Shown piece by piece: positions 29,339 through 64,000 of a stretch of 64,000 bases of DNA (positions within the stretch are counted from its first letter, which is position 1; each line of letters opens with the position of its first letter). Below the pieces are notes generated by a model. That model was given only the letters and a program-made list of their open reading frames with translations. It was not told the DNA's origin and ran no database searches. The stretch lies in assembly GCA_921293015.1 (NCBI GenBank), contig OV121081.1, positions 29,949,158-30,013,157 on the forward strand, in the 5' to 3' direction. Position numbers and translations under genes: made by a program. This stretch comes from Phorcus lineatus. Taxonomy: Eukaryota > Mollusca > Gastropoda > Trochida > Trochidae.

Positions 29339-29476
29339 ATGGCCGTGTTCAATGGATGCTTGTTTTGTGTACTGAGTGTGGTGTATTCATACAGTGTCAC
29401 GTACGATTACATATACGTCACTATAAACGCACAGCAGTATGGAGGCAAATTCAGGTTTCTCACCTTTCTAGATGTG
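29339..29476 (+). CDS. AIG1: AIG1-type gene, alternative first exon A
   Basis: 46 codons: a hydrophobic helix ([20 protein letters not shown]), then a short loop and [13 protein letters not shown] before GTAAGA. The frame is open upstream to an ATG at 29312, but the ATG at 29339 gives the same 46-codon length as exons B and C and puts the helix at the N-terminus. Predicted catalytic residue Thr42. Confidence 0.85.
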
Positions 29477-32400
29477 GTAAGACATTCCTACAAGCAATAT
29501 ACTACAATGTATATGTCTATGACATACAACAATATATGCTGCTAATTTTGCATTTATAGAAATGTAGCCCTATAGATACTTAATTATCAATAATTAAAAA
29601 ACTTATCTACCCGTGTGTCTATTCAACGGATAAACATGATTATCAAATACCTGTGTAATCCATGATCACAAAAAAGTCATTATATATGTATACGTGTACA
29701 TCTAAATTTATAGGAAGATTGAAAAACATAAAAACACTTTGGGTTTGTTTTATACTTTATGTTTGCACTTATAGGAATGAGCAAATATGCAAGCATGCAG
29801 CAACCAATCAATTTATCCGTCAATCCAACCTTTTATAATTTTCAAACATGTACATGGATTTATATGAACGCAGGTATCCATGAATATATCTATGCATGCA
29901 TCCATGAATATGGCGATGCATGTATCCATGCATCCAGCCATCAATCCATACATACATTCATACGTACATACATAACATTCATACGTAAAAAAAACATACA
30001 TACATTCATTCATACGTACATACATAACATTCATACGTGCAAACATACATAACATTCATACGTGCAAACATACATACATTCATACCAACATACATAACAT
30101 TCATGCGTGCAAACATACATACATTCATACGTACAAACATAACATTCATGCGTGCAAACATACACACATTCATAGGTACATATATACCATTCATACGTGC
30201 AAACATACATACATTCATACCAACATACATAACATTCATACGTGCAAACATACATACATTCGTACGTACATATATAACATTCATACGTGCAAACATACGT
30301 ACATTCATACGTACATACATAACATTCATACGTGCATACATATTTAACAATTATACGTACATACATAACATTCATACGTGCAAAAATACATACATTCATA
30401 CGTAAATACATAACATTCAAATGTACATACATATTTAACAATTATACGTACATACACATCATACGTTCACATATATCTACATGTGCATTGGTATATATAA
30501 ATGCATGCATGAACTCATGCCCGATTCACCTCACCTCACATACATACATATTACATAACTACTTACATATATACCTACATACATACATACATACATACAT
30601 ACATACATACATACATACATACATACGTGCAAACATACACATATCATACGTACATACATAACATTCATACGTGCAAACACACATACATTCTTACGTACAT
30701 ACTTAATATTCATACGTGCAAACATACATACATTCATACGTACATATATAACATTCATACGTGCAAACATTCATACATTCATACGTACATACATAACATT
30801 CAAACGTACATACATATTTAACATTAATACGTACATACACATCATACGTTCACACATATCTACATGTGCATTGGTATATATAAATGCATGCATGCACTCA
30901 TGCCCGATTCACCTCACCTCACATACATACTTAATTACCTACATACATACCTACATACCTACATACATACATACATACATACATACATCCTTACCATACA
31001 TACATAAAATCCATACGTTCATACATTTTCAACATTTTTACGTACATACCATACATACATATATAACATTCATACGTACCATTCTTACGTACATACATAG
31101 TTTAAATTCAAAGAAGTGTTACAATTCACCTGATTTCAAGCACAGTGGTGTCGCAATGCACCTGATACTAATTCATTAGCACATGCATGTATAATTTTGT
31201 AGCCACTCTCCATCCATTTCTACACGTGTATTGAATAATTGTAACTGAAACTTCTCATAGATGGGTGAGCTGTGCGCTTAATTAACATAAATATACAATA
31301 AGTATATGTATAACCTTACATCCGTTCAAGAGACAACAGAGGCGAAATCTATGTTAATCAAGTAAATTGCAAATTGTTGATGCTCGTCCCAAATTGAGTG
31401 AAATTAAATCATCAATCCTGATGTAAACTAAGCCTAATTGCCTTATAAAACTAATCATCCAAACACTTGGCTAATTGAAAACAACATGAAAAAGCTGTGA
31501 CATTAATCGTTTGAAATCTAGCGCCTTTCTTATTCATCATCTGTAAAGTTGTGCTATAGATATGTAGACTTCACATCCAGTTTGTGTGCTACAAATGTGT
31601 AAACTCAAATACTATAGTCCAGTAATATTATGAGAATACCAACCAAAAGTTTATATGCTTATCATGCTCTGTAAAATATTGATTGATAATAATGTTATAA
31701 AGTAATGATCCAGGAACTTAAAACAGTTGACATCATTTCTGTTGCAATTTCTGGCGGGTTTGGTCACATTTTTACCAGGATTACTGGTCTACGATGCGTG
31801 TGTTCTGTTTGGGTGGTAAACGTTATCAAGTTATGATAAAATGAAAACAACTGTATTCGTCTTGAATTTTACAACGAAATCCTGAATATGTTCAAATATA
31901 TTGCCCATTATTTCAGAATAATTCGGGAAACTTATCTAAAGTAGATAGAATTGCAGATTGAATTCATACTGTAAGATTGGTTATATATCGAATATTTATG
32001 GCAATGTGACTAGTGTTTTCGGTGATGCACGTGCTGTTGTAAAGCTGGTGTTCTATTTCCAATCAAATTGTCATATAGTTTGCATTTGGGGATGGCATAT
32101 TGACAATGCAATGATAAATCTTCAAATCATATCAGCACATGCATATGCTATTTTTTTTACACTTATCAAAGCCACAAAAGTTTATTAATATCGTTGGAAG
32201 TCCTTTTTTACACCTATTGATCTCTACAAAGCAAAGTGGTGAGTATCGGTTGAGTGTACTATGTGTAATACAAGTGCTGACCTTTTCATTGTTTATAACC
32301 ATGAACAAGCTATAGACTTACACTCAGTCCCCGAGACTTTTCAAAGAATGATTATCTTATTTATCATTGAAAGGATTCCTCAGAGACATGGCTATTTCTT

Positions 32401-35400
32401 GATCAATCTAGACTTGTTTATAATTTATATTTCTTGCAAAGTGAATTTCAGGTTAAAACATTATGAAAAATTTTCTGTTAGTTAGGGTAACATATACAGC
32501 ATGCGATCTGTAATTTTTAAATTATGACTCAAAAGATCTAGATGATAATTAGTTATAAAACGTTACATTTTGCTACTCTTAATCCGCACAACGTGTTGTT
32601 CATTGTAATCTCCGAATCTCCAGCTACGGCCAGAATCGGATTACTAATGAATCAGTTTACATCATAGACTCTCAAGTCTAGATAGAGCATGTGTCCAACA
32701 AACAGGCCAAAAGTGTACAGCGTTGCCTCGGAGAGTGCATCAACTAAAGAACAAGGATGATATTGTGTTTGAATATTATGAACTTACTTACCTCTCATAT
32801 CCGCCTATCGTTTTTGCAATATAAACTAAGTACGGACATACACTGTGTATGCCAACATAGTAAATTTGATATTGTCTAATAGAATTATACACACGAGATA
32901 AAAAAAATCAAAGTTGTTTATACGCGTGAAAAGGATATTGGATGGCAAGCATTGATGTGTTGCATACTTTTATATAGGTTTCTCATCTAATAAGGATGGT
33001 TATTTCAAACATCATAAACGTATTTAGAAAGTTGGATATAAAAACTGTCTACTTTCATCAAATAAGAATTAACAAGTTATATAAAAAAATCTTAGTAATT
33101 TTGTATTAAGTCGACATATGCATTTCGTGTTATAGATCATGCCAGTAAAAAGTCAATGGACCTTAATGGAGCGAACAAATCATGGTTATGCAATTGCAAC
33201 CGAAAGCTAGGGTATACAACTATAGGTCCTTGGTTCCTGTGACCAAGGTATATAGAATATACAACTGTACGTCCTTGAAACCTGTGACCGGGGTATATAG
33301 AATATACAACTGTACGTCCTTGAAACCTGTGACCGGGGTATATAGAATATACAACTGTATGTCCTTGAAACCTGTGACCGGGGTATATAGAATATACAAC
33401 TGTATGTCCTTAGTTCATGTATCCATTGTATATAGAATATACAACTGTACGTCCTTGGTTCAGGTAACCATTATATATATAGAATATACAACTGTACGTC
33501 CTTGGTTCCTGTAACCATTGTATATAGAATATACAACTGTCCGTCCTTGGTTCGTGTAACCATTGCATATAGGATATACAACTGTACGTCCTTGGTTCCT
33601 GTAACCATTGTGTATAGAATATACAACTGTCCGTCCTTGGTTCGTGTAACCATTGTATATAGAATATACAACTGTCCGTCCTTGGTTCGTGTAACCATTG
33701 CATATAGGATATACAACTGTACGTCCTTGGTTCCTGTAACCATTGCATATAGGATATACAACTGTGCGTCCTTGGTTCCTGTAACCATTGCATATAGGAT
33801 ATACAACTGTACGTCCTTGGTTCCTGTAACCATTGCATATAGAATATACAACTGTAAGCCCGTGGTTCCTGTAACCATTGCATATAGAATAAACAACTGT
33901 ACGTCCTTGGTTCATGTTACCATTGTATATAGGATATACAACTGTACGTCCTTGGTTCATGTTACCATTGTATATAGAATATACAACTGTACGTCCTTGG
34001 TTCCCGTAACCATTGTATATAGGATATACAACTGTACGTCCTTGGTTCGTGTAACCATTGTATATACTTTAAACAAATGTACGTTCTTGGTTCATGTAAC
34101 CATTGTCTATACTTTATACAACTGTACGTCCTTGGTTCATGTAATCATTGCATATATAGAATATACAACTGTACGTCCTTGGTTCCTGTAACCATTGCAT
34201 ATAAAATATACAACTGTACGTCCTTGGTTCCTGTAACCATTGTATATAGAATATACAACTGTACGTCCTTGGTTCCTGTAACCATTGTATATAGAATATA
34301 CAACTGTACGTCCTTGGTTCCTGTAACCATTGTATATAGGATATACAACTGTGCGTCCTTGGTTCCCGAAACCACTGTATATAGAATATACAACTGTACG
34401 TCCTTGGCTCATGTAACCATTGTATATACTTTATTCAACTGTACGTCCTTGGTTCGTGTAACCATTGCATATAAAATATACAACTGTACGTCCTTGGTTC
34501 CTGTAACAATTGTATATACTTTATACAACTGTACGTCCTTGGTTCAGGTAATCATTGCATATAGAATATACAACTGTACGTCCTTGGTTCATGTTACCAT
34601 GTATATAGGATATACAACTGTACGTCCTTGGTTCTTGTAACCATTGTATATATGATATACAACTGTACGTCCTTGGTTCCTGTAACCATTGTATACATGA
34701 TATACAACTGTACGTCCTTGGTTCCTGTAACCATTGTATATACTTTATACAAATGTACGCCCTTGGTTCATGTAACCATTGTATATACTTTATACAACTG
34801 TACGTCCTTGGTTCATGTAACCATTGTATATATGATATACAACTGTACGTCCTTGGTTCCTGTAACCATTGTATATACTTTATACAAATGTACGTCCTTG
34901 GTTCGTGTAACCATTGTATATAGGATATACAACTGTACGTCCTTGGTTCCTGTAACCATTGTATATACTTTAAACAAATGTACGTTCTTGGTTCATGTAA
35001 CCATTGTATATACTTTATACAACTTTAGGTCCTTGGTTCATGTATCCATTGTATATAGAATATACAACTGTACGTCCTTGGTTCGTGTAACCATTGCATA
35101 TAAAATATACAACTGTACATCCTTGGTTCGTGTAACCATTGCATATAGAATATACAACTGTACGTCCTTGGTTCTTGTAACCATTGTATATAGAATATAC
35201 AACTGTACGTCCTTGGTTCCTGTAACCATTGTATTTAGAATATACAACTGTATGTCATTGGTTCTTGTAACCATTGTATATAGAATATACAACTGTACGT
35301 CCTTGGTTCCTGTAACCATTGCATATAGGATATACAACTGTACGCCCTTGGTTCATGTAACCATTGTATATAGGATATACAACTGTACGTCCTTGGTTCC

Positions 35401-38400
35401 CGAAACCATTGTATTTAGAATATACAACTGTATGTCCTTGGTTCCTGTAACCATTGTATATAGGATATACTACTGTACGTTCTTGGTTCCTGTAACCAGC
35501 CAACTGTTTTTACTGACAGAGGATATAGATTGCTTAAAATGTCCTCATTTTTATGATATTGAAATTAATGAAATAGCAAAAGCATGATCTATTGCGTTAG
35601 TTCCTATGTACCACTATCTGTTTGTGGTAGTGACACATTACAAACGTTATCAATTGCATGCTGTTATTGATAAGTGCTGATTGTAATTGTATATGAAAGC
35701 CTATCTGTTCAATATATTGTGTCAATATGTACTGTCGTGTATTTTTATAGAAAACATGCGCCATGCAAATTGTCTTTGAGGCATATTTTTTTATTTGATA
35801 GTTAAGTTATACTAAAATGTTCGTTAGCCGAGTAGTGAAGATCGAATATGTATACGCCAGGATGAGGCTGCAAGTAACCCGAGTATATGGGAGGGATATC
35901 GCTGATTGGCTAATTTGATCGTTGCCAGAGATGAATCTGATGGCTTGAGTACTTTGGCCTCGTTTGAGCTATGCAGCAAAATTATTTCATTTTAATTACC
36001 GGTATATTGATACAGACAGATTCGTGTAATTAATATTCACATGGTTTTATATTCATCCATTAGATCTGAATACTAATAATAGTAAAATAACTTTATAGAA
36101 AAACATAGGTTTGCCTTATATACTTGGATATGATCTCTATTTATGTATTATGAAAAACACATAATTTTACACACAATGGCAAAATGTTAATATTTTATTC
36201 ACGTAGAAAGAACCTGTTTTGAATTTTGCGATAGATTTAATGTCGCCATTCATATTCATGCCGTTATATCCCGTTAATCACGTTGCTTACACTTAGTTTT
36301 TAGAAAATAACGTTAATAATATAATTCTTTATGGTTTAGAAAGTGTAACCTTTTAGTATATGAATTCTGGAGAAAAGTTGAAAAATTTTATGAATCAGCA
36401 TATTACACATCTGAATATTGTCATCTCTGACTTAGATATTTTATTCTGTAACAGTTCAGCCAGCCTTCTGGTATCTCATGTCATACTAATTGCTAAAAAA
36501 TATATAGATATCTCAAGTATTACGAGAAACAAACTTTCTATTGAGTGTTTTATAAGTGTTGTCAAGAATGATTTTAATGTTGAAAAAATTATTGCATGTA
36601 AAAATAATGCACTACCATCTTTCAACATTAAATGGAGAGCTTTAAATAGTGTTTTACATTAGTGACCTTTATTTATATTTAATGATTGCTTTATCATTTT
36701 CCAAACTAGTGTTTGATATGAAGTGTCTCTGTATGCTATCAGATGTACACCCGCTGAATATAAATGAATAAAAAGATTTGAAAAAAAAAGAAAAAGTGTT
36801 ACCTTTCGATCTAAATGTAATAGAAAACCTATATTATTTGGTTAAAATAGAGTGTTTGCTCCACATATGGCGTTTCGACACAAATTCTTGTTTTGTCGTC
36901 AACCAGAATAATCGAATGGTGTAAATGTGAATAAAATCTATGAAGAGATGAAATAAAATAACAGTAGAAAAATCAAAATTGTCAATGTCATTATAATATA
37001 TATCGCATCCTACTTATATCTGATTTTGTTTTGTATCACATTGGGAATATTTTGGTGTTTTTAAGATGATCTTTGAAATTTCGTACAGGGGTGTTCTGAT
37101 GATTTTACGAGCACTTCATTTGCAGTTGTCACGTGATTTACGTGTTTTGACTGTAAAAGTTGTGACAACAGTACACTTCAGATAAACTATTAACAGCTAT
37201 GGAGATATGGCAGTGTTTTGTGTGGGAAGTGTTCTTTGTTATAGAGGCATATGCTGTGCAATACCAATGGAGATACGTTACCGTCAGTGCACACATTATT
37301 GGAGGAAAATTCAAGTTCCTCACTTACTGGAATGCGGTAATTTTATTTTTTGTACATCTCACCTTAACATAAATAACTAAATTACTATGCAATCAACATA
37401 TCTATATGCAAAAGCGTTCATAGGTTCCATACGATTAATTCATAAAATATTGACCAATAGAATAACTAAATCATATAGGTATATATAGGAAGTATGTATG
37501 TTTTGACACGCGTTGACCTAACTGATCACCAAGCGTGTTACGGGTAAATATAGACAACCAGTCAAGTTGACGGGCTTTCAATCTCTGAATAAACCCGAAC
37601 AAGTCTGGTCAAAACTCAGTAGTGTGAATAAATTATTGCATGTGGAGACCGCCGTTCAAGTTATCATTATACTTTTGAACAAATCCTTAACAAGCCATAA
37701 CAGCGTATTTAACAAAGGAAAATATTTCTATCTAGTATTAGAATAGTAATGAAATATTCTCAATAGTTGTAACCTTTTGGCTTCTTTTATGATTATTTTA
37801 TTGAAAGCAATATTCTATTTCCCTATCTAATGTTGGCTTTTTGAAAGGTTCCTATCGCTTACATTTCTTAAACGTTCTCTCCCCCACAGAGTTAGCTCAA
37901 GTCATTAAGTCCCACACTAGGATTTTATAACTTGAGCTACCTGTGTGGGGAGAGGATGGTTCTTAAAATGAGATTTAGAAGAATTCAAATACAATTGTTG
38001 GGGTACGGAATATACATGAAATAAACATTTTGAAAAAAAAAGTAATTATTTAGCCTCTCTGGTCGGAGAGAATAATTCTCTTCCTCTAGCTTGTAACATG
38101 TTAGATGTTTTGTGTATTTTAAAAAAAAACATTTTTTTAGTCCCTTATACTTATATTACGATATAATTTGAGGTGTACAATTAGGTTCATTTCTTTCATG
38201 ATACATTTGTATGCATAAGGAATATTTCTTCCTATTTTTGCATATCAAAACTATGTATATGAATCTAACTAATTTCAACACTCACAGTTTATCAACACTT
38301 GTGATTTAACAGTTTGTTTGTTGTTGGATCCTACTTACAGTTTCCATGGTAACCGCTTACATATCATGACCCGAATGGAATACGCTGTATTAATAGAACT

Positions 38401-41400: not shown

Positions 41401-43689
41401 CCGCTCTCATGTTCACTATGACGTCATCCTTTTGTCGATTAACATTTTTGATGACGTCATTTTTTATAGCAATATTTCACATGTTGATATAGGAGATAAA
41501 CGTAGTGTGTATGAAAATCAGAAACATGATATACTGGATTGATAGCGAGTACATTTTGAATTGAAACCGAACGCGATTATTTAACTAAATTAATTTTTCT
41601 TTTAGTTTTACCCATAAATATCGTTACTATTGAGAAAATGTGATATCCCGGTAAGCGTATTTCACCAGATTTCAATAGATTAACATCGTTATTATAATTA
41701 TGAATTAAATATTGAACGGCCTTATTTTAACGAAGAACAGAGAGGAAACTCATGCAGTCTGCACAATTCCCTCCCGTCTGTAAATCAATACCGTGTAGGG
41801 GCGCTTCTTTATTCTGAATGAAGTCATCCGTCACGTGACTTGTTGATGGACGCCAATAACCGACCGGTGCACATACACCAAGGCTATGGATATTCTCCAG
41901 TGTTTGATATTCTCAGTATTCTTTGTGGTGTATCTATTTTCCCTATACACCGACTTATTCCTCGTAAATATCACACGGGATGGACCAGGCGGGAAACTGC
42001 AGTTCTTGACGTTTTGGAACGAGGTATATTTCAGCCGAATTCTCTAGCCAAAGGACGCTGTAGTTTTAATTGTGAAAATCACACAGACGTGTTTCGCTTA
42101 GAAACGGCGCTGGAGTGTCATAGATGTCTATAAGCTTTCCTGTTTACGCAATAGGTATACGTTAAAGGATATAGGTATGTAGTATCGAGGATAGTAAACG
42201 ACCTTCCATTTGATACTATTTTTATGAAACGAGTTAATGATTAAGTATAAAACGAGCGAAAGCGAGTTTGATACGACATCAATAACGAGTTTGAAAAAAC
42301 TAGTATAAGAGAGTTTAGTATTTTTTTTATTACCTGACCTCAGTAATCAAGCATAATTGTCGAAAGTGTGCTGAAGGAAACATTTCTGTGACTTGGCTGC
42401 CATTGTGACGGCGGTGCTAACATTGTGACGTCACAACCACACACTATTGTGACGTCATACACGAAGCGGCATTAGTTTATTATCGCCTTATAAATATTAC
42501 ATAGAGGATATTTGACATTTCTCGTCGAATACCATGGATATCTCATCGAGTGAAGTAGAAATTTATATTTTATTTATATTTAAATATATGATTTTCTACT
42601 TCACGAGATGAGATATTCATGGTATTCGACGAGAAATGTCAAATGTTCTATTTATTATGTTTCCCAAAACCCCGTAAATGACCCTAACTATATGAATGGA
42701 GAAGCTAAAACGCTTCGCTAGCGCGGCCGTCGCATGACGTAATTCAATTGTTTCATGACGTCACAGATTACGTCACATAATTGTTGAATCATTTCACTGA
42801 GTAGAATACCATAATTATTTCACTCAGTGAAAATACGGGTTTTATTTTCACCGATAAATGGCATATTTCACCATTCGAAATATAATAAACTGCAGTATCT
42901 TACACGGGCGAGTAATAAATATATTTATACCACTGTTATAACAAAATAATGGTATTATTTAATGAACTTTGATACTTAGTTCTCAAAAAATTCTTAACTG
43001 TATCACTGTGTTGCTTGAAACCAGTAAACTCAACGTTTACCTGAGACATTAATCTTTTTAATTGATACAATGTAGTCAAAATGGCAACAGATGTATGCAT
43101 TTTAAAATGAGCACCATGGTAACAGAAAACATAAATGAATCTTGTTATTTATGAAGTTTTAATTCAAATAGGATTATGAATAGTACATATAAATTAGCAT
43201 TAAATGTGCAATTTATTCGATTATTTGCTCCCATTGGAGACATGAAATATTAGCACTAGCAACCAATTAGTTGAAGTTTAGTTTCAAAAGGACAAAGAAA
43301 GATGCTAACGTTTAATATGATTTTTTTAAAGAAGTGAATTTTTATGCCAAGTCTATTTTGTGTTGGAATGTGAATGACAACGTAGATCTGTGAATGCAAT
43401 AGCAAGAGTTACCTCCCTTGTTACATCAGTCCGGTTGCAGGGTTGACATCCATTTGAGTTTCACGCTTTCGAGATGTTATCGTGTTTATTTGTAGCGTGT
43501 GTGTTTTGCATGTATTTAGCTAGTGTTCTTTACGATATGAACTATGTAAGAATAGGGGATCCGAACAGTCCAACTTTGTTTATCATCTTTCACTACAATG
43601 GATACGCTGGAAAGTTCAAATATATGACTTTTATCAATTTGGTAAGCATTATCATTATATGATAATTTGTAACTATAACCTACTATAAC

Positions 43690-43747
<58 letters not shown>

Positions 43748-46700
43748 CATATATATGTATTTATTTATTTATTTATTTTTATATTATGATAATATTAATT
43801 ATTAGTTCCAGATTAGTTGATGGTTTTACTGTTAAATTGTTATCTTTGCATGTATTATTTAGTAATTCATATTTCATTTCTTTCAGTATATTTCATAAAT
43901 ATAAAATACTAGTAGATGATTAGATGCACAATGCTGACTTATTATCACCTACATGGCAATTTTCTTTTATCATTGAAAACAAGAAAATATCCTTATTTGG
44001 GCATTTAGAGATAATGATGCAATTTGATTTGGGGACAATATTTTAATTGAACTAAAGACAGATATATTTTGGCTGTTATTTCAGCCAAATAAAAATTTAT
44101 GAAACATATTCTGTCACTTTAGTTGGAGTTATTCTTTGTAGGAATTAAATCAAAGGAGAGAATTCTATTTCCTTACTTATTTATACCTGATTATTTTTGA
44201 ACCCGTAATGCTACTACTAAATTGGAATATTTTGTTTACTTTGTGCATTTAACATTTGACAAAAGATGGCATTCATTCAAAAGACTTAAACATCAAAATA
44301 TGAAGCATATTGGCAATAATGAAAAATAATTGCTGCAGACTATCAGTGTATTGTGTATCATATCCTAAACGGTTAGTGACTGAGTTTATTGAGAAACGAT
44401 ATTGCAAATCACGCAATGTAGTCTATCTACTAACTTGCAAAAAATGCAAAATGCAATATGTAGGGGAAACTAAAAGAGAGTTCAAGACACGATTGTCTGA
44501 ACACTTTGCAGATATTACTCACAAAAGGGATAAACCTGTACCCCATCGCTTCAACCTCCCTGACCACACCAAGAGCGATCTCACTTACAAGATTATTGCC
44601 CAACTTACACAAAATCCTGAAACAGAGAGGACCACTCAATATAAAAGAGTACTTGAACTGAGATGGATTTTTGAGCTCCTAATGTTCCACCTGCGAGGCC
44701 TCAATGATAAGATTGCTGGTGGAAACTTCCCGCCTTTTCAACTTTGAGTTTATTCAGTTTAAGAAAAGTGTTTTCATTACCGCAGTTTGATATCCCCTTC
44801 TCACAATGAAAAATCACAGAGGGTATGAAGTAACTTGTACTTAGGTATGACGTCAGTTTTACAATGAGCATTTTGTCATTGCTGTTGCTAAGTGACGATG
44901 AAACAATGGTCTGACATCACAAGAAACCCATGAAGTGAAGCATTTTTGGATTTAAATCACCACATTTTAGGCAACATAAGGATATAAGAAACAAATGTTT
45001 TTGAGTTTCATTGGATATCACTTATCTCCCATCTTGTGATGGTGTGAAGCATATATTTTTTCACTTCTGGCTGCACCACTTGTATTAAACTTTTGGTGAG
45101 AGTTAAGTTAAGTGATGTCACGCTGAAAACAGTTTTTATCAGTATAATGATGTAAATTTGGGGTTATTAAGTCAATACATATTTTACTGTTAATACTAAG
45201 TAATTTGTGAAATTAATGAAAATTCTGATTCACATACTGCAGGAAATAACAAAGTAGTTGATTATGGCTGATAGAATGATCTCTTAGTGTATTCATCAAA
45301 CTTTCCTGTCTGATTTGTGTTTTATGAAATTAAACCATTTCATCATTTTGATACTTATGTTTTGGATGACACTCTGTTAGAAATCTGAAAGTGAGACAAG
45401 TTTGATATCTTGTTTCACTTAAGTTATTTTGGGCAAAATATATATAGACTTGATGTTTGAAAAAATAGAATGAAAAAAATTGGACAAGCAAAATAATGTT
45501 ATCTTTTTAAAACATTTATTTTCCTGATTTCCAGTAAATTATGTAGGTCATCTAATAAAACAAGCATGTTCTTAAATCCTAATAAACAATACAAAGTGAA
45601 CCAATAATTATATAACCTAGGACCTGTCAGTAGTCTTTTGTCAAAAGCAATAATAAGTCTTTTAATGAAATTATTCTACTTTCTTAAAATATTATTTCAA
45701 GAACACTTGAAAATTAACATTCCAAAGGGTGATTATGTACTGTGTGAAATTAAACAGTGCAACGAAATAACAAAGTGTTTTTATTTAGTTTCCAATGAAA
45801 ATGATTTTTTAAAAGTTCTGGTCATCTCTACACAACACACTGGGAAATTAGTCTTTCATTGCAATACAATATAGCCAATTATTTGTATTAATCAAACAGA
45901 TCATAATAGCTTATCTTTATCTATAAATTGTCACATGAAATACCAACTATATCTACGCTTGTAAAGTTCACTTGAACCTGTGTATCATGTCTGTCATATC
46001 TATAAGTTCAATATTTCTCCATGGTTTTCTTTATTATAGTATTATATTCATGTACATTCTGTCTGTCAAATCCATCTTATGTATTTTGCCAAAAATACTG
46101 GGGGAAAAAATGTATTCTTCTGTTTGAGATGACATACAGCTAGATCTAAAAGTGAGATAAGTTTGATAACTTAAGTCCATCTAGTCTAACAATTAGACTT
46201 TGAAATGAAAATTTATCAGTTGATGAAAACTTTAAAAAAATATTAAATGAAATGAAAAGGAGACTGAAATTTCTTCATTTTCAGAAATTAAGCTCTCAAG
46301 TCTTTGTATAGACTTGCTTAGGCTTCTTACAAATTTCAGGATCTGGCCTAAAGACTAAAGTCCATCTTATGAATTTGTTTGACTCTGCAAAGAAGGCAAA
46401 AGCAATGAAGAAATAAATGAAATAAGAAACTAAACCACTTCCCATATAACATTTTGTTAATGATTTAATGTCAAACTAGCAATAACAAGCTTTGTTACCA
46501 AATCATTCACAATTTTAATAATAATTTTATCATATGAAAGGAGATAAGTACTCTGTTTCTCACTTGGATCTATTAAATATAATTGGCGAGGGTACCAGTG
46601 TGATAACTTTACTTGCATTGTAACACCACAACTGACATCATCCTAGCAGCAATTTTGTAATAATTTGATATTGTCACATATAGATTATTTTTTATCACTT

Positions 46701-49700
46701 TATTTCTTTTTTTATGGTCACTTTTCTATGTCACATAGATATTACTGTGCAGTATCGTTTTTAATTCCATTTATCAAGAGTAAATACTATGAAAAAAAAA
46801 AATATTGTTATTTTATAAATAACTAGTTACTGTTATTTGAATACCAGTAAGAATGCACTTTGATATATTTTATGCCCAAAAGTTGTATAGGAATCCTTGG
46901 AGGAGACAGTGCAGTTTTGGATCCATGGATGTGTTTGGAAACGAAGGAAGGGGAATTCCCCTTATCTCTTAGACCCTTCCTGCTATTTATCTATAGAATT
47001 TTCAAGGGTTTTTTTCATATCATGTGACCAATGAAATTAAGTGTAATTTAATAAATAGTTTTGAGTCTAGAAAATGTTGGCAAGTCTAGCTGCCTTAACT
47101 TTATGTATTTTTTTCCCATATAAATATTTTGAAAATAATATATTACACACATAAAAAATAAGTCAGGAATTATGTTTTTGACTTCTTCTCATCAGACTCA
47201 GTTAGATTAACCTAGCTGATAAGATAAGAGGCCTGTGCAGGTGGAGTTACCTCCCTTGACACAGGTCTAAGTCCATTCAAGTTTACAGCGGATAATTTAC
47301 TTCTTGCTTTTGGCATTGTTTTCCTTCTTCCAAGATGTTAGCTAAGCTATATTTAGCATGCATGTTTGGCATGTATTTAGCAAGTTTTATATACAATATG
47401 ATCTATATCAGAAAAGTTGATCCAAAAACTTCAACGCTGTCTACTGTTTTCAACTATAAGGGATATGGGGGCAAGTTCAAATATATGACTTTCATCAACT
47501 TTGTGAGTATAAATCCAAATAAGATGTGAACTGAAATTAAATACTTTTAAAGTTCACAATGTCTTACATTGTATCTCTTTTGTATTAAAAAATGCCAAAT
47601 CTTAATATGACATAAAAATGTTAAGAAAAAATATTCTTGAATTTGAAAGAAGTTTTCAAAATTGATAATGGTGTTAAATGATTTTAGTATTAGATAAAGG
47701 TATTCAAAGAAAAGTCCCCCACCCCCCTCCTCTTTTGTATGCAAAATTCATTCAAAGTTCTTTGATCTGCAACTAGAAGTTTGTAGTTGTTAATTTTCAT
47801 GAAACCAAGTAGGTTACCTTGATCTTAATTTTTTTAAAATCAAGTTTAATTAACAATATCATAAGCTATAAAGTTTGCAAGTCTGGATTCAGCTGTCCCA
47901 GTATCAGTGGAGGAATTTTTTTTTAAAAATCTACCATAAAATGGGGTTTGAAAACTGGTAATTCACGTATACAATGGAACTTAGTGCATAAATGCAACCC
48001 AAGGGAACGACCAAAAGTGGCCCTCATGTACAGGTGGCCTTTCTAGAGAGGTCTTGGTGTTAAGTGATAGTCACAGACAACTAACACAAATTGTAATAAC
48101 ATATCTTTATAATTACAAAATCATGTTGTTATACGTTCTTCGGCGATTCTGATTGGACGAGAGCTCTCAATAACATGCAACCATGCAACATGCAATTTTG
48201 CTGTTATACCTCGTGCATTCATACTTTATGACGTCACAATCTAACAGAACAAATTGACGCAACGGCTAGTCCGGTTATGACAACATCGCATTACTTTTGT
48301 TTTTTTTGCAAAATAAGAAATGTACGCATGTTATCATCTTCATAACTGAGTGGATAACCAGATAATAATAAACAAATTTTGTATACAATTTGTTGCTGTT
48401 ATACATCGATAGAGGCACAAAAAATGTAAAACAATTCTTAAATAAAACCAAATGAGCACACTCACACATGTTGATTCAGTTACAATAGTTTAGATAAAAT
48501 GTATTATTCAACATATTAAAACAATCATTAAAAAGTGTTGTTATAAAGGTCCAAAAAATGTTTCTTAGTGAATTCAATTTCCTGATTTTGTATTGCTAGT
48601 TTGTTAATTTATTTATTGTAAATTCATTAAGTATTCCTTTAACTCCTTTGCAAGTCTCAATACATTTTACTTGCATTTGCATAATTAAAATAATTGTAGT
48701 ACCAACTCAAATCACACAAAAGAATATGTATACTCACCCTACTGTGTTATTGAGTGAGATTACAGTGTACCTTCATTACATTGACAATTATGACCCTACA
48801 CTCGCTTGCTGGCACAGAAAACAGTCTCTTGGCTGTTAGTTCAAGTGTACTTCCCGATCATGTGACAGTCACATGTATTCAAAATATAAAACATTAGATA
48901 TAAGGGTCATTCTCAAAATTTGCCCAAATTTGAGTCAGTAGCACATTGCTCAGAAAGTGTGATTTCAACATTTTTTATGTTAGGATTTCATTCTAATCAT
49001 GTCTAGATTATTTTTTTCTTTTGAAAATAATCAAATAAGTGGACTCATATTTGATAAAATATGTTTATTTCTGATGATGACAACAGTGGAAATATTCCTT
49101 ATTCAACATCAAATTGAGAAAATATTCACATTTAATTAAGCTTGTTACACCACTGACAATTTTTTTCAAGTTGATAAATTGTAAAATTAATTCCCAAAAT
49201 ATTTTATCACCTTCCAATTGGTTGATCATTGCAAACAATAAAGAAATCATATATATAGAAACTGAATTTGTCTGTATTTTCCATGGTTTAAATGTGGCCA
49301 TTTATGAGAATGACTCATTACATAACATCAGTCAGGAGGACTTTGCAGCAGATGGCCGTGCTTTGGAGGTGGTCGTTGATACAAATTTGACTGTACTTTT
49401 TGAATTTTTAGATGAATATATGGGATGCTTTGAAGGAATTTCATCATAATTTCTGTCCATAATTTTGGACTCCTTTAAAAGCTAAAATAATTATCCTGAA
49501 ATAGAGTTCAAGGGTGACTTATACAGTAAACATACAGCACTTGCTCAACTGAAGTTAATGGCTATTGACTGATGAAATGGTTAAATAATTGTTCGGAGTA
49601 AGCAATAACTTCCTTTCATTGAAATACAACATATGTTAGCATTTATGTTATTAATGTATCTAATTATAATTTCATGTATTTCAATAAAAGGTCCCCACTC

Positions 49701-52700
49701 TATCCCATGCTAGTTTCATTCATTTGGAGGTTCATATGACCAAGGGCTATGTCAATCTCTGCTGTCTTTAGTGTGTGCGTGTTTACACTGAATTTGGCGG
49801 CTTTGATATCTTACACTCAAAAATCATTCACTTTCAAAGATATTTCCATTGTAGACGGTTCTGGGTATGGAGGGTTGTTCAAGTTTCTAACGTATCTCTG
49901 TTTGGTATGTTTACGAGTGTATATCTTATACAAAATGTTTGTAATTTGATTTGTTTTTAATCGATGTATGAATATGTTGTTAAATTTATGTCTCACATTT
50001 TTCTTCCTAGATTCTTATATAATGTTGATGACATTTTTATTACAGATTCTCCAGACATTTTACTATGGACTGTGTGTAGTTAACGCCCTGTTTGGTACCA
50101 ATGGCGGCCCAGAAGTCAGTCCAAAGAAAAGATCTTCTCTCCAGAAGTTGCGAGATTACATCCATTCTACTCTAGCCTTCCCAGTAGGATCTGTAAGTTC
50201 TCAATGCTTCTCACTTCAAACAATCTTATGGCGAGGTATTCTTCTACTAATTCCATCCTGCTCCACCAGGGAATATCTGTACATGCGGATCCTTCAATCC
50301 CCTGATAGCCTTCACTGCTTTTCCTCTGTATCCCTAACAAAGGCTAATCACAGCTATGAAGACTCATCAGTACTCTCATCCAGGCACTGCCAAAATTGGT
50401 TCATTTTTTATCATTTCATTGGTGGTTTATTCATGGAAGATAAGAGGGAAATCCAGTGAATGCAATTAGGGGATTGAAAGGTATGCAGGCCTATCCTCTG
50501 AAGCTCATTTTCAACAAATAGTCCACAAATGTGGCAAGAATCAAATACCCAAGTCTCTAGTTTAACAAAGTGCAAGTACTGGTAAGGTCAACTTTAATCC
50601 ATAGCTATAAGATTGACACTAAGTTATAATACTCATCATGTAATCATGAATTATTTCTTGACAATGGATTCAATATTAGTAAATAAAACACTTTTACACA
50701 TTGTCTTGTAATGACTAAAATTGTTTGTGAAAAGTGGCAAAGAAGAGAGTCATGTGAAAAATTAAAAAAAAATTTTTAAGGGGGGTTTTGAACCCCTTTT
50801 ACCCCAAACTAATTGGATCTGTCACTAAATGCTAGACTTAACATATGTTAATATTTTTGCCTGTATGTTTTCAGTTTGTGGTGTTAACGTTCTGGTCCAT
50901 CTATGCAATTGACCGTGAGCTGGTGTTCCCCCGAGAGCTGGACAAGATAATCCCTGTCTGGCTCAACCATGTCATGGTGAGAGTCAACTGTTGGTCAAAT
51001 TTGCCTATTCAATGACTTGCTTTAAATTTTCTCTCCATCAACATTATTTAAGTTATTTCTTTTTTTGCGCATTCTGGACTAGTAAAATCTAATCCTGTTT
51101 GTTTAAATCAAAGTTGGTGGTGCAATCAGTGAGGTTTCAAACTGATCATTTAAACTGTTCTTTTAGCCATTGAAAAGCATTTGGAACACTGTCAGTCTGT
51201 TAGGGCTGGGACGGGTAACCCGGATACCCGGGACGGGTGGGTATATAGTAGGACCCGGGTACCCATAACATTACCCGGACCCGTTTTAATCACGTGACAA
51301 ATAAATAACGAATTTATTGAAAGTGTTTCAGTGTTTGTTGTATTTTCAATTACAACGAAGTTGTAGCATTTTGGTCGAAGTTCATGCAGCAGCAGGAAGC
51401 CAGAAACGTAATACGAACTGTCGGCATCGTTGTCAACAATAACAAGAATTTCAAGAAACATGGTCAGCCCGGGAAAGTCGCTGTCGACACCTCATATTCT
51501 ATGCAAATATCATTAGCTATCAAAAATAACGTGCATGATAACAACTGGATCAGACCTTTTCATTACAAACAGAATGTTAGAAATAGAAACCAACCTTAAA
51601 TACTTAGAAAACGAATCCATGTTGAAGGAAGTTCAAGGAACATTGCCATCTAATTGCCATCGATCTGATGTTACCGCGACTCATGTAACCTACATTTTCA
51701 TTGGAAGGCTAATTATGATATAAATGATGTATGATATTTACCTCTGACGTATCGCTTGGTGATTGGTAACTTAGACCAACCCTTCATCCAATCAGCAACG
51801 CATATGTGACAGAATGATTGTCATCAGGAATTTCCCCACAAGAAACATATATATATATATAAATAGTGTTTAGAGAATCAATTATTGTCAATAATATCCA
51901 CTTAAAATAATTTAAGTTTCTTTTTATTCATCTTTTTATTAATTAATATTATTTTAAATGATTAATATATCTCCTTTCATTCATAGCGAAAAATACTTTT
52001 CAATGCAATCAAAAGCAAATCTTTCTGTGATTTGAACGCGATTCCGAAACACTAAAGCTATCCTACTTTGAACCGTTCTATTTGTGTTCGCAAGAGTTAC
52101 CTCCCTTATACATTCATAGCGAAAGTAGCTGAATTGTGATTGGATATTTGGATATATTTACTTGACATGAGGCAAGCCATTTGTTGTGAGACAGGTAAGG
52201 ATATCTATTTATTATTTACTTTGAAAGCGTTAACTAAACTTAACTTATCTTAACATTATTTATTTATACCTTCAATTGTATTTTGCCTGTACACCGTTGA
52301 TTGAAGGACGGTAGTTTGAAGCCGTTTGTTTGTTACAGAGGGGTGTTTGTTGTTCAAATGCTTCCACATCGATGATGTACCCCCTCCTTTGTGGCTTAGC
52401 TGAGTTGAACACAAAATGCATTTTGTTTTCGTGCCTGATGCCACCGATTCAAAATATTTCCACACGCCACTCTTGATCTCGGCCATGCCGGTTTTTATTG
52501 AAGGGGAATAACTCACAATTAGTGTATTGACGGGTACCCGGGTCGGGTCGGGTAATAGGGGGTCGGGTACCCGGGTAGAAAATTTAGACCCGTCCCAGCC
52601 CTACAGTCTGTCTCCATATGGCATTTTGATAGGGCTTCCACACATAAAATAAATTACTCAAGACCTCAAGGGGTAAGATTCGACTCGGACCCAAGGACCC

Positions 52701-54296
52701 CAAATTCTTATCTTTACACAATAGGTCATGTATGTATTGTTGGTCAGCCTAGATATAATATGCATACAGTAAATTTTGGCACGGAAGTCATGACGTGATC
52801 ATCTTCATCATCTTACTTCACATATCACAGACAAACAGTCTAACATTACTTTAATAAGTTACAATGATCTCATCTTACCGAGAATGAAGAAAATGGACTG
52901 AGCTAGTCCAGCTCGACCTGACTTGTAGCCCTACTTGTAGATATTTCTAGCATGCACCAACTAGTTGAGTATATTTGTCCTGCTTGCAGCACACGTTCAT
53001 CCTGCCCATCCTACTGGTGGACAAGTACCTCAACTACCACCATCTACCCAAGAGGAAAAATGGTATCCTTGGTCTCCTGGTTTTTGGGCTTGCATACCTT
53101 GTTTGGTAAGTATTATTTGACATGGAGCATCTTGTAATGATCAATTATGTGATAGGTTATCAATTGTGTTAGGGACTTTTCATACAATCAACTACAACAG
53201 TGTTTGCTTTTGGATGCAGCCATCTTTATTCCAGTAAAGTTACTTAAATCTTGTTATTACTCGCCCATGTAAGATACTGAAGTGTAATATTTATACGGCA
53301 ATATTAAACTAGTGTAATACTGCTGCCGCTGCTTGCAATATAGTTTGGTTGTGATGTCACAAAGTTAACACTGCCGTCACAATGGCGGCCAAATCGCTGA
53401 AATGTGTCTTCAGTCGTTTTGCTTGTTTTATACTTAATCATTAAGTCGTTTGATAAAGATAGTATTAAATGGAAGGTAGTTTAGTATCCTGTATGTACCA
53501 CGCTGCGTACCGCAAACAGAAAAATCAGATAAACCCTATTGATGAACCATCTTCTTTGCCCATCCCAAACCACCTCTTCCACCTCTCCATTTTTGACTTC
53601 TAGTGTAAAAGCAATGACTCTATATTTCAGGCTGCTGTGGATAGCGTACTACGCTGGTATCTGGGTCTATCCTATACTCCGAGTGTTGGAGCCGTATCAA
53701 CGAGCCATCTTCTTCGCCTTCCTTCTCATGCTCTTTATAAGTTTATATCTACTCGGAGAGTCTCTAACTAGATTTTTGTGGAGTAAGTGAAATCTTTAAT
53801 TCTTTGTTCTCGGCATGCATTTTGATGATTGCCTTCATTATCAATGCGATTCTTTGTCATTTTATGAATTTGAGAGTCTACTTGAGAATTGAAGATACTT
53901 TCATTACATACTGGAAAAAGAAATAAGGACATTTTTTTACATTTAGAATATCAAGAATAATTATTCAATTCTATCTTTTAATTAACACACTAATAAAACA
54001 TTATTAAAAAAAATTCCAATATCCCAAAGTTATTTTGTCTAGTACAGCAAGATTTTCATTATCAAGTATTGAAATATTAAAATTACTTGATTCAATAACT
54101 TTATGGGTAAAATTATTTAACATACATGTATTATCAAGTCAATAAACTAAAAAAAATTTAAAATGTATTTTATTTGAGTGAAGAAATGCTAAACATTATG
54201 TTATCTTTACTTTCAGGGAAAGAAATAGGAGCTGCCCTTTATGCACCAAGATCTAACAAATCTTACAAATCTAGTAAAAGCAAGAAGAATCATTGA
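29339..54296 (+). CDS. AIG1: AIG1/ADTRP-type membrane hydrolase with six alternative first exons
   Basis: Family knowledge: AIG1 and ADTRP are multi-pass membrane threonine hydrolases that cleave fatty acid esters of hydroxy fatty acids (FAHFAs); human AIG1 uses Thr43 and His134. Seen here: shared exons at 50046-50192, 50875-50976, 52990-53105, 53631-53782 and 54217-54296 join in frame into 198 codons plus TGA. Upstream are six separate coding exons (29339-29476, 37199-37336, 41886-42023, 43474-43641, 47335-47502, 49749-49904), each starting with ATG and ending in phase 0 at a GT donor. Any of them fused to the shared part gives 244, 254 or 250 residues, against 245 in human AIG1. All six keep the (F/Y)(L/M)T threonine; the His is the first residue of shared exon 4. 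Alternative promoters are inferred. The alternative view, that some first exons are dead duplicates, is less likely because none has a frameshift or stop. Confidence 0.9.
29477..29945. other. Start of the intron after exon A; nothing recognisable
   Basis: Donor GTAAGA begins this intronic stretch. It is AT-rich and leads into the CATA array. Confidence 0.5.
29946..31101. repeat. CATA-based minisatellite with 383-bp higher-order repeat
   Basis: Built from CATA tetranucleotides and longer units such as CATTCATACGTGCAAACATA. A unique block (ATCTACATGTGCATTGGTAT, then CATGCATG and GCCCGATTCACCTCACCTCA) occurs twice, at about 30470-30545 and 30853-30930, showing a 383-base higher-order duplication. 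The array gives long but meaningless open frames on both strands. Confidence 0.9.
31102..33209. other. Intronic DNA, nothing recognisable
   Basis: About 2.1 kb between two tandem arrays, AT-rich. Open frames at 31958-32188 and 32261-32485 lack motifs. Confidence 0.5.
33210..35505. repeat. 45-bp minisatellite, about 51 copies, palindromic core
   Basis: The period is 45 bases. A typical unit contains GTATATAGAATATACAACTG, then TACGTCCTTGGTTCCTGTAA and CCATT. GTATAT-AGA-ATATAC is an inverted repeat with a 3-base loop; many variants change only the loop (AGG, ATG) and keep the arms. As 45 is 15 codons, open frames run through the array on both strands (up to 319 codons), encoding a 15-residue repeat with no known fold. 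It lies between first exons A and B. Confidence 0.95.
35588..36359. other. Intronic DNA, nothing recognisable
   Basis: AT-rich sequence between the 45-bp array and the possible retroposon end; no motif seen. Confidence 0.5.
36360..36797 (+). mobile_element. Possible retroposon 3' end with poly(A)-like tail
   Basis: A 100-codon open frame (36360-36662, containing [20 protein letters not shown] and a C-terminal [12 protein letters not shown]) is followed about 100 bases later by AATAAAAAG and an A-rich tail with nine A in a row. That layout resembles the 3' end of a non-LTR element or retrocopy. I do not recognise the protein. Confidence 0.35.
37199..37336 (+). CDS. AIG1: AIG1-type gene, alternative first exon B
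   Basis: 46 codons starting [20 protein letters not shown], ending [12 protein letters not shown] before GTAATT. Predicted catalytic residue Thr42. Compared with exon C it shares the QC and VFFV positions, GGK, FLT and WN, which suggests B and C are sister duplicates. Confidence 0.85.
37868..37970. repeat. Palindromic foldback element
   Basis: GTTCTCTCCCCCACAGAGTT and, inverted, GTGTGGGGAGAG flank a short centre; GCTCAAGTCATTAAG on the left pairs with ATAACTTGAGC on the right. It is a compact relative of the elements at 1498-1910 and 62611-63068. Confidence 0.75.
38000..39280. other. Intronic DNA, nothing recognisable
   Basis: Open frames at 38709-38912 (minus) and 38928-39116 (plus) overlap one another on opposite strands and have no motif. 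Confidence 0.5.
39290..39790. repeat. Dispersed repeat with recurring 'GCGGTTCATG' phrases
   Basis: TTGAAGACTCTAGGTGCAGC and close variants occur three or four times with GTGACCTTGAAAAT-type text between them. A similar phrase (GGCACCTACCCACAAAAATT, then GTACAGCAGTTCTTGAGAAT) lies at 57700-57830. Such repeats are common in molluscan intergenic DNA. Confidence 0.5.
39856..40012. repeat. 31-bp tandem repeat, about five copies
   Basis: Units contain GCCCCGGGCAATTATCTTAA and TAATGCCCTCT, with internal variation. The unit is GC-rich in part, against an AT-rich background. Confidence 0.8.
40240..40665. repeat. Direct repeat pair, about 340 bp apart
   Basis: CGCTATCGCTCGGGAAATAC followed by TAATATTTAGG occurs at about 40243 and 40586, each time followed by related text (GTCGTAAAC or GTTGTAAAC, then ATCCTCTATTTC). 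It is probably part of a dispersed element related to the one at 42175-42925. Confidence 0.6.
40397..42763. promoter_or_regulatory. Cluster of TGACGTCA (CRE-like) palindromes around exon C
   Basis: Perfect TGACGTCA occurs at 40397, 41419, 41452, 42426, 42450 and 42756; a TCACGTGA E-box-type palindrome lies at about 41832, just upstream of exon C. TGACGTCA is the consensus for CREB/ATF-type bZIP proteins. The sites at 42426-42763 sit inside a repeat element, so part of the cluster may be carried by transposons rather than selected. Confidence 0.4.
41886..42023 (+). CDS. AIG1: AIG1-type gene, alternative first exon C
   Basis: 46 codons starting [20 protein letters not shown], ending [14 protein letters not shown] before GTATAT. 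Predicted catalytic residue Thr42. The ATG at 41846 is out of frame with this exon and opens a different, overlapping frame; it could act as an upstream ORF. Least like the others in the loop, but the frame is intact. Confidence 0.82.
42175..42925. repeat. Dispersed element with internal large palindrome
   Basis: Its left part (GACCTTCCATTTGATACTAT) and right part (CAGTATCTTACACGGGCGAG) recur in inverted orientation at 53257-53500. Inside, 42501-42562 and 42593-42651 form an inverted repeat with arms of about 55 bases around a roughly 30-base AT centre. Confidence 0.7.
43474..43641 (+). CDS. AIG1: AIG1-type gene, alternative first exon D
   Basis: 56 codons starting [20 protein letters not shown], with a ten-residue longer loop, ending [14 protein letters not shown] before GTAAGC. 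Predicted catalytic residue Thr52. Identical to exon E at 33 of 56 residues, and both have GAGTTACCTCCCTTG about 60-100 bases upstream of the ATG. Confidence 0.87.
43692..43780. repeat. (TA)n microsatellite
   Basis: About 50 bases of uninterrupted TA followed by CATA and TTTA short repeats, just after exon D. Confidence 0.95.
44310..44747 (+). mobile_element. Penelope-like element fragment with GIY-YIG endonuclease domain
   Basis: An open frame of 145 codons holds the PLE signature: [20 protein letters not shown], then [14 protein letters not shown], with the CxxC pair and downstream His, and an Arg in the R-x-x-x-H helix. A conserved C-terminal region ([19 protein letters not shown]) follows and it ends in TGA. 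This is the C-terminal endonuclease part of a Penelope-like retroelement; no reverse transcriptase was found upstream, so the copy is 5'-truncated. It lies between exons D and E. Confidence 0.85.
44748..47334. other. Intronic DNA, nothing recognisable
   Basis: AT-rich sequence after the Penelope-like fragment up to exon E. The open frame at 45638-45874 has no motif. Confidence 0.5.
47335..47502 (+). CDS. AIG1: AIG1-type gene, alternative first exon E
   Basis: 56 codons starting [20 protein letters not shown], ending [14 protein letters not shown] before GTGAGT. Predicted catalytic residue Thr52. Clearly a duplicate of exon D, with the same loop length. Confidence 0.88.
48904..49318. repeat. 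Possible MITE with GGTCATTCTCA ends
   Basis: GGTCATTCTCA near 48905 and TGAGAATGAC near 49305 are inverted copies about 400 bases apart, enclosing AT-rich sequence. No target duplication is visible, so this is uncertain. Confidence 0.3.
49749..49904 (+). CDS. AIG1: AIG1-type gene, alternative first exon F (nearest the shared exons)
   Basis: 52 codons starting [20 protein letters not shown], ending [14 protein letters not shown] before GTATGT. Predicted catalytic residue Thr48. Only 141 bases separate it from shared exon 2, so it is the default first exon by position. Confidence 0.88.
50046..50192 (+). CDS. AIG1: AIG1-type gene, shared exon 2
   Basis: 147 bases, phase 0 both sides, between TTACAG and GTAAGT. 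Encodes [17 protein letters not shown], a charged loop, and [15 protein letters not shown], matching AIG1's LRDWMLAVLAFPVG. Read-through past the donor gives the longer open frame ending at 50459, which is not coding. Confidence 0.93.
50875..50976 (+). CDS. AIG1: AIG1-type gene, shared exon 3
   Basis: 102 bases between TTTCAG and GTGAGA. Encodes [20 protein letters not shown] and IPVWLNHVM, matching AIG1's FWIIYAYDRE and IPGWLNHGM. Phase 0 on both sides. Confidence 0.94.
51201..52603 (-). mobile_element. Well-preserved hAT-type element with BED-finger exon
   Basis: The ends TAGGGCTGGGACGGGT (51201-51216) and its exact inverse (52588-52603) are flanked by the 8-bp duplication CAGTCTGT (51193-51200, 52604-52611). 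Inside, the minus strand at 52256-52516 encodes an 86-residue frame with GVWKYFE, then CILC and WKHLNNKHP: a C-x2-C / H-x4-H BED zinc finger, the DNA-binding part of hAT transposases. The RNase H-like catalytic domain is absent, so the element is non-autonomous. It lies in the intron between shared exons 3 and 4. Confidence 0.93.
52256..52516 (-). CDS. BED zinc-finger fragment of a hAT transposase
   Basis: About 77 residues from the internal Met ([20 protein letters not shown]) hold a complete BED finger with intact Cys and His ligands, and then a polar tail ending TIEGINK. BED fingers bind transposon ends; this one has no transposase body attached. It belongs to the element at 51201-52603 and is not a host gene. 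Confidence 0.7.
   Translation of the reverse strand: MSYSPSIKTGMAEIKSGVWKYFESVASGTKTKCILCSTQLSHKGGGTSSMWKHLNNKHPSVTNKRLQTTVLQSTVYRQNTIEGINK
52630..52933. mobile_element. Degenerate hAT-type MITE
   Basis: TAGGGCTTCCACAC (52630) and GTAGCCCTA (52925-52933), with inner text like that at 28680-29075 (GATTCGACTCGGAC, GAAAATGGACTGAG). It lacks a recognisable target duplication and lies just downstream of the intact element. Confidence 0.65.
52990..53105 (+). CDS. AIG1: AIG1-type gene, shared exon 4 (catalytic His)
   Basis: 116 bases between TTGCAG and GTAAGT. The first codon is the His equivalent to AIG1 His134 ([15 protein letters not shown]). Then [11 protein letters not shown] and the hydrophobic [14 protein letters not shown]. 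Ends in phase 2. Confidence 0.94.
53257..53500. repeat. Shorter inverted copy of the 42175-42925 element
   Basis: TTATTACTCGCCCATGTAAG at its left and AAATGGAAGGTAGTTTAGTA at its right are the inverse of text at the ends of 42175-42925. Confidence 0.65.
53631..53782 (+). CDS. AIG1: AIG1-type gene, shared exon 5
   Basis: 152 bases between TTTCAG and GTAAGT. Encodes [20 protein letters not shown] then [15 protein letters not shown], matching AIG1's VTGMWVYPFLEHIGP and LYLLGEVLNNYIW. Confidence 0.95.
54217..54296 (+). CDS. AIG1: AIG1-type gene, shared exon 6 with stop
   Basis: 80 bases including TGA. Encodes a basic cytosolic tail [20 protein letters not shown] then SKKNH. A KKxx-like lysine pair near the end might favour ER retention, but the spacing (KKNH) makes this a guess worth noting only. 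Confidence 0.9.
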
Positions 54297-63447: not shown

Positions 63448-63670
63448 TCAGACAACTCCTGCTCCACAACCAGCACGACTGACTAGCATGTTGCTAAGCA
63501 ACGACCACTGATCAGATTCAGGATCGTAAACCTCAGCACTTCTTAATCGACTCTGTCCGTCAAATCCTCCAACTACATATATCCTGCCGTCGAACACAGC
63601 GATACCAGGCCAGGCTCGGGGAGTGTTCATTGGTGTGATAGTCGTCCACTGGCGGGTCAATGTGTTGAAG
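63448..63670 (-). CDS. Kelch-repeat protein, terminal exon (partial gene)
   Basis: After the acceptor AAATTTCAG, an open frame encodes FNTLTRQWTTITPMNTPRAW, then IYVVGGFDGQSRLRSAEVYD and WSLLSNMLVSRAGCGAGVV before TGA at 63448-63450. This is one full kelch blade (VVGGFDG, Tyr, Trp) plus the closing strand of the propeller. It most likely belongs to a KLHL-type BTB-BACK-kelch protein (a Cullin-3 substrate adaptor), but only the C-terminus is in view, so the member cannot be named. The remaining exons lie beyond 64000. Confidence 0.88.
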
Positions 63671-64000
63671 CTGAAATTTTATAATTACAGCAATGACAAT
63701 TATGATCATCTTAGAACTAATGCAGACTGTGAAATATTGTTTTGGTGAGGTTATTTTGAGGCAAGATATAATTAAATACTCTCCTCTGTGTAGTGATTAC
63801 AGTACAGTACGACACGAGCATTATGCCAATTGTGATCCCGCTGTTACTCTATCAAAAGGTTTTAACTGGTACTGAAATTTGTCACTTTAATTCTAATCAT
63901 TTTTGTATAGCAACAATATAAAGCCATTATCAAAGAAGTGATTTTGATCAAAACTAAATTGTGTAACTCAGCTGCCAAACCTAAAATATTTGTTTGACAT
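63671..64000. other. Intron of the kelch gene, nothing recognisable
   Basis: Intronic by inference from the acceptor at 63671. The short open frame at 63693-63875 on the plus strand has no motif. Confidence 0.5.

Follow-up and report, generated by a model that had tools for sequence, protein, structure and literature searches.

Our preferred reading of this locus in Phorcus lineatus, to which we assign a probability of about 80%, is that it holds one FAR-17a/AIG1-family gene with a cluster of variable first exons, each of which would have its own promoter and be spliced in phase 0 to a common exon 2. Within the 64,000-nucleotide stretch of DNA that we analysed (the window), six homologous first coding exons, here called A to F, lie in tandem on the forward strand between positions 29339 and 49904, with start-to-start distances of 1.6–7.9 kb. 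On direct reading, all six begin with an ATG, are free of stops and end at an in-phase GT donor (phase 0). Exons A (29339–29476, donor GT at 29477), B (37199–37336, donor GT at 37337) and C (41886–42023, donor GT at 42024) are each 138 nt long and encode 46 aa with a shared threonine at position 42; D (43474–43641, donor GT at 43642) and E (47335–47502, donor GT at 47503) are each 168 nt long and encode 56 aa with the threonine at position 52; and F (49749–49904, donor GT at 49905) is 156 nt long and encodes 52 aa with the threonine at position 48.

Downstream of F, on the same strand, lie the predicted constant exons 2 (50046–50192), 3 (50875–50976), 4 (52990–53105), 5 (53631–53782) and 6 (54217–54296, ending at the stop codon). 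An AG precedes all five, a GT follows the first four, and when joined they form an open constant part of 198 aa with its stop at 54296. All six donors are phase-compatible with the common exon 2 acceptor, and the spliced proteins A to F would measure 244, 244, 244, 254, 254 and 250 aa. An earlier, sequence-only reading of this DNA had given the same first exons and donors and had seen no stop or frameshift in any of them, and in this we agree with it; its exon 2 acceptor, given as 50045, had to be corrected, as the AG ends on that base and exon 2 starts at 50046. The motif it described in each first exon, GG-x(3)-(F/Y)(L/M)T, is present in five of the six, D having AG instead of GG, so that the form common to all is [GA]G-x3-[FY][LM]T. 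It had also assigned one hydrophobic helix to every first exon, and we found this to be clear in five (best 19-aa Kyte-Doolittle averages of 1.64–2.39) and weak in B (1.22). In favour of the ATG as the start, all six exons have an in-frame stop 12–42 bases 5′ of it and a purine at position −3.

Several other features were observed around the array. A frame at 7139–7489 on the reverse strand, approximately 22 kb upstream of the array, matches the MBOAT O-acyltransferase profile PF03062 (E = 1.7e-12) and would be a membrane lipid enzyme, and a Kelch repeat frame at 63448–63678 on the reverse strand (E = 1.4e-20) is probably the edge of a neighbouring gene. Between D and E, a frame with a GIY-YIG domain at 44304–44747 on the forward strand (E = 4.6e-7) is probably the remnant of a retroelement, which we take to be Penelope-like, and a BED zinc finger frame at 52256–52600 (E = 1.6e-10), antisense between constant exons 3 and 4, is likely a transposon remnant, presumably hAT-like. 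A long tandem array of 45-nt units, to which a 300-nt reference aligns in 49 registers, occupies approximately 33114–35587, between A and B, and has several open frames, one of 340 codons; a second array, of 59-nt units, lies at 10717–12432, and here a 300-nt reference aligns in 25 registers with up to 98% similarity.

To place the encoded proteins, we compared them with the Pfam profile PF04750, whose FAR-17a/AIG1 family we take to be unrelated to the AIG1-type GTPase (GIMAP) family. All six spliced proteins matched it with 201.7–212.4 bits (cut-off 24.5), over a span running from profile position 2–15 to position 205 of 206. The constant part alone scored 182.6 bits, and each first exon contributed 19–30 bits more. 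By hydropathy alone, isoform A displays nine runs above 1.5, several of them overlapping; the family has about six membrane helices, and hydrolysis of FAHFA lipids is one of its traits. A search of the PDB with isoform A returned no match up to an E-value of 10.

The first exons are divergent (22–59% pairwise amino-acid identity, E being nearest to D at 59%), and across A to F only three alignment columns are invariant, namely Met1, one Gly and the Thr. The loop that precedes the motif is 10–12 aa longer in D and E, and 6–7 aa longer in F, than in A to C. Hydrolase activity depends on T47 and H131 in ADTRP and on T43 and H134 in AIG1, as stated in part of PMC8123165. Against a human AIG1 sequence typed by hand, whose Thr43 and His134 agree with the numbering in that part of PMC8123165, the invariant threonine aligned with catalytic Thr43 in all six first exons, and the first codon of exon 4 encodes a histidine that aligned with catalytic His134. 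The two residues are 88 positions apart here, compared with 91 in AIG1 and 84 in ADTRP. Because of this alignment, the variable exon would carry the nucleophile and the shared part the histidine, such that the array is predicted to exchange the nucleophile-bearing half of the active site while the partner His stays in the shared part. That the threonine occupies the catalytic-nucleophile position had not been recognised in the sequence-only reading, and it is unusually clear which part of the active site falls to the variable exons and which to the constant ones.

To see whether the six exons resemble each other beyond chance, we extended the window by 80 kb at either end and ran leave-one-out profile searches over the 10,118 six-frame pieces of the resulting 224 kb. 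Five of the six were recovered at E = 8e-4 or better, above the best non-member, and F was not, reaching E = 0.21, below a non-member at 0.084 in the same 224 kb. Support for F comes from its own Pfam match (15 bits, or 43.4 with its neighbour in frame) and from its position directly before exon 2. The first-exon profile picked out the six exons and detected no seventh in the window and its 80-kb flanks, where the next best piece had E = 0.47. Searches of the whole genome with the B protein matched A, B and C only; the D protein matched D, E and three other places at E = 1.2–4.3 that we judged to be chance, and A as a DNA query found only itself. These first-exon genome searches are low-powered, as neither protein query retrieved all six.

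The upstream regions bear on how the six exons would be brought into transcripts. We observed CpG observed/expected ratios of 0.96–1.48 in the 500 bases before A, B and C (window median 0.46), and ratios of 0.56, 0.14 and 0.23 before D, E and F, which are not clearly raised. With one mismatch allowed, we found no 8-mer that recurs in every one of the six upstream regions, against a mean of 3.1 for random stretches, and TATAWA was found within 250 bases upstream of two of the six, in both cases beyond −200. Shorter-range sharing was seen within pairs, in candidate promoter elements that were picked post hoc. The element GTCACGTGA is common to the regions 47–71 bases before the ATGs of B and C, where it stands at 37128–37136 on the forward strand, 63–71 bases before the B ATG, and, before C, as GTCACGTGAC at 41830–41839 on the forward strand, 47–56 bases before the ATG; TCACGTGA occurs at seven places in the 224 kb. 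The 15-mer GAGTTACCTCCCTTG has two copies in the 224 kb, both on the forward strand and both upstream of D or E: one at 43406–43420, starting 68 bases before the D ATG, and one at 47244–47258, starting 91 bases before the E ATG.

We rejected GAGTTACCTCCCTTG as an element specific to D and E, since the 958-Mb genome has 607 copies of it, 290 on the forward and 317 on the reverse strand, with 0 copies of the reversed control, and it is thus common and weak evidence. Among 20 of the 607 copies that we compared, all on contig C1, the flanks were mostly unrelated, with similarity across the motif in 3 of 190 pairs, and the element showed no clear orientation, the longest ATG frame being longer downstream than upstream in 11 of the 20. 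It resembles a widespread short cis-element more than it does a transposon. A second, related GAGTTATCTCCC was seen near one of these 20 copies, and GTCACGTGAC lies 20-odd bases downstream of one of them.

Kilobase spacing, the CpG-rich stretches before A to C and the elements common to B and C and to D and E together fit separate promoters, which we consider the likelier mode, above all for A to C. The alternative, which we regard as unlikely while giving it some weight, is that one upstream promoter, or in any case fewer than six, drives a shared noncoding 5′ exon, and that some or all of A to F are mutually exclusive exons carrying the start codon. We scanned for acceptor-like sites by the pyrimidine fraction before each AG (background median 0.47, 99th percentile 0.82), and within 60 bases upstream we found such AGs, with pyrimidine fractions of 0.71–0.88, at D (0 and −44), E (0) and F (−35 and −19). 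The tract of E reaches 0.88 and ends in AAG directly at the ATG; of the two D sites, the one at the ATG is a GAG with 0.71 and the one at −44 a CAG with 0.76; and of the two F sites, the one at −35 is a TAG with 0.76 and the one at −19 has 0.71. As these values match those of the predicted exon 2 to 6 acceptors (0.59–0.76), a noncoding first exon may stand in front of D, E or F, which would make some of them second exons. The sites at −44 of D and at −35 and −19 of F led us to weight this alternative up and our preferred reading down. On the other side, the 60 bases before A, B and C offer no good acceptor-like site (best 0.35–0.53), yet two of the predicted acceptors themselves reach just 0.59; all five predicted acceptors end in CAG, an ending shown by a single D site and by no site of E or F; and the spacing and the CpG-rich stretches suit separate starts better than a shared promoter.

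To determine whether the first exons have been under selection, we fitted codon models. Synonymous sites were at or near saturation in most pairs, D and E giving pS = 0.63 and pN = 0.18, and the pair A/F was exceptional in having pN above pS. A one-omega model was run on three trees for the six exons, two of which are identical once unrooted, and on the two distinct unrooted trees it gave omega = 0.177 and 0.171, with omega = 1 rejected in both (LR = 37.2 and 40.5); the exact omega is soft, given alignment gaps and saturation. Of six pairs fitted individually, D/E gave omega = 0.198 (p = 8.5e-5) and D/F was also significant (p = 0.014); the test of omega = 1 was not significant for A/B (p = 0.054) or E/F (p = 0.064), and A/C and B/C hit the branch-length bound (t = 33) and were unused. 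The exon DNA of D and E is 73% identical, and the similarity between them spans the exon and extends 8–15 bases 5′ of the ATG and 8 bases into the sequence after the exon, falling to chance, with values in 30-base windows of 0.2–0.4, from 45 bases upstream outwards and just beyond the donor. Because this similarity ends approximately 8 bases past the exon end, read-through peptides in place of splicing are disfavoured. Taken as sequence, A to F look like old exons that have been retained as coding and spliced.

We next asked whether the constant part is single. With the constant part as a tblastn query, the five known exons were recovered and no extra copy of exons 2 to 6 was found in the window (best other match E = 0.46) or in the 224 kb (best other match E = 0.53). 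Searching the 958-Mb genome exon by exon and following the best candidates only, PF04750 gave six matches up to an E-value of 10, of which five are at this locus (F and exons 2 to 5), and the sixth, on contig C5 (E = 0.22), contains four stops and was judged to be chance. The constant protein gave seven matches genome-wide, five of them at this locus, and the two elsewhere were likewise judged to be chance, the one on contig C16 (E = 0.033) containing six stops and the one on contig C5 (E = 5) two. Scored singly with the Pfam profile, this gene's own exons reach only 15–44 bits, so that a divergent paralogue could escape detection, and as far as an exon-wise, best-candidate search can see, the locus appears to be the genome's only FAR-17a/AIG1 gene. 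As a separate observation from the genome, the mollusc-type haemocyanin domain PF14830 has 16 matches, eight in each of two runs on contig C12 (7646582–7661095 on the reverse strand and 16557773–16572398 on the forward strand, approximately 9 Mb apart), and none in 14 control genomes, which points to a mollusc and probably to a gastropod. The sequence-only reading had proposed that the first exons are under selection, that a single downstream set of exons 2 to 6 exists and that no exon 2-like copy follows A to E. An omega of about 0.17 with omega = 1 rejected upholds the first of these, no second set turned up in the window, the 224 kb or, exon by exon, the 958-Mb genome, and the leftover tblastn matches were at chance level.

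These results also weigh against A to E being relics of whole-gene tandem duplicates that have lost exons 2 to 6, with F alone functional. The tandem, same-strand layout and the adjacency of F to exon 2 are what such a history would leave; against it, all six exons are open and have donors despite near-saturated synonymous divergence, purifying selection is detected even in D/E, a pair without F, and traces of exons 2 to 6 between the first exons were found neither in the window nor in the 224 kb, and we therefore hold it to be very improbable. An assembly error that collapsed several full genes onto one constant part is the least probable of the alternatives. Long arrays of 45- and 59-nt units nearby are sites where assemblies can fail, but the 224 kb contain no N, no other constant exons were found among the best candidates genome-wide, and the flanks of D and E do not align together.

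The reading of the locus as a cluster of variable first exons thus holds in its sequence-level predictions: a single constant part, six intact and phase-compatible exons, and selection on them. In the mechanism that we propose, each first exon would be transcribed from its own nearby promoter, with transcription of A to E presumed, translation would begin at the ATG of that exon, and the exon would be spliced in phase 0 to the common exon 2 acceptor. The outcome would be six membrane proteins with an identical 198-aa C-terminal part, in which the variable part gives the first transmembrane helix, a loop that differs in length and the invariant threonine aligned with Thr43 of AIG1 and Thr47 of ADTRP, and the shared exon 4 gives the catalytic histidine. 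The choice of first exon may then alter which lipid the hydrolase acts on, where it is located or in which tissue it is expressed. That one gene yields a repertoire of AIG1-type lipid hydrolases in this way, six promoters picking the helix, loop and threonine that are joined to the histidine core and so producing six hydrolases that differ in lipid specificity or tissue, seems to us evenly balanced between true and false.

The best reading of the layout is a variable-first-exon cluster like those of UGT1A and GCNT2. The vertebrate UGT1 (UGT1A) locus likewise has tandem variable first exons and one downstream constant set; it encodes an unrelated enzyme, a glycosyltransferase, and varies a whole domain, whereas here a helix, a loop and the nucleophile are varied. 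His39 of UGT1A1 sits in the variable exon. Clustered protocadherins are adhesion proteins without catalysis and have many more variable exons. Vertebrate AIG1, ADTRP and AIG-L genes belong to the same PF04750 family and have the same Thr/His pair as the gene described here. Sections of PMC1885805 give His39 of UGT1A1 as a proposed catalytic residue (a general base), assign the acceptor-binding half to the variable part of UGT1, name as similar the clustered protocadherins, which likewise join variable first exons to constant 3′ exons, and term the organisation of Ugt1, Gcnt2 and Ugt2a vertebrate-specific. The same source, in part, describes GCNT2 (IGnT) as having, likewise, a few similar variable first exons with an N-terminal transmembrane segment and shared 3′ exons; this gene encodes a glycosyltransferase, and in human, mouse and rat its variable exons number three and its constant exons two.

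Vertebrate AIG genes diversified into paralogues by duplication, according to part of PMC8394805, and human ADTRP has three described and four computed isoforms in UniProt, according to part of PMC8123165. The portions of these two papers that we drew on make no mention of a homologous first-exon array for AIG or ADTRP genes, and in the open-access literature covered we found no report of alternative first exons with ADTRP or androgen-induced gene 1. The statement that no such arrangement had been reported for AIG1/ADTRP is consistent with this search of one open-access literature collection.

If the proposed reading is true, P. lineatus would have an enzyme cluster of the UGT1A design in an invertebrate, and this in a family that vertebrates diversified by gene duplication; a molluscan enzyme so organised would suggest a further origin of the design. 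With the aligned threonine in the variable exon and the histidine in the constant part, the locus would also offer a natural domain-swap experiment on the choice of substrate by AIG1 and ADTRP.
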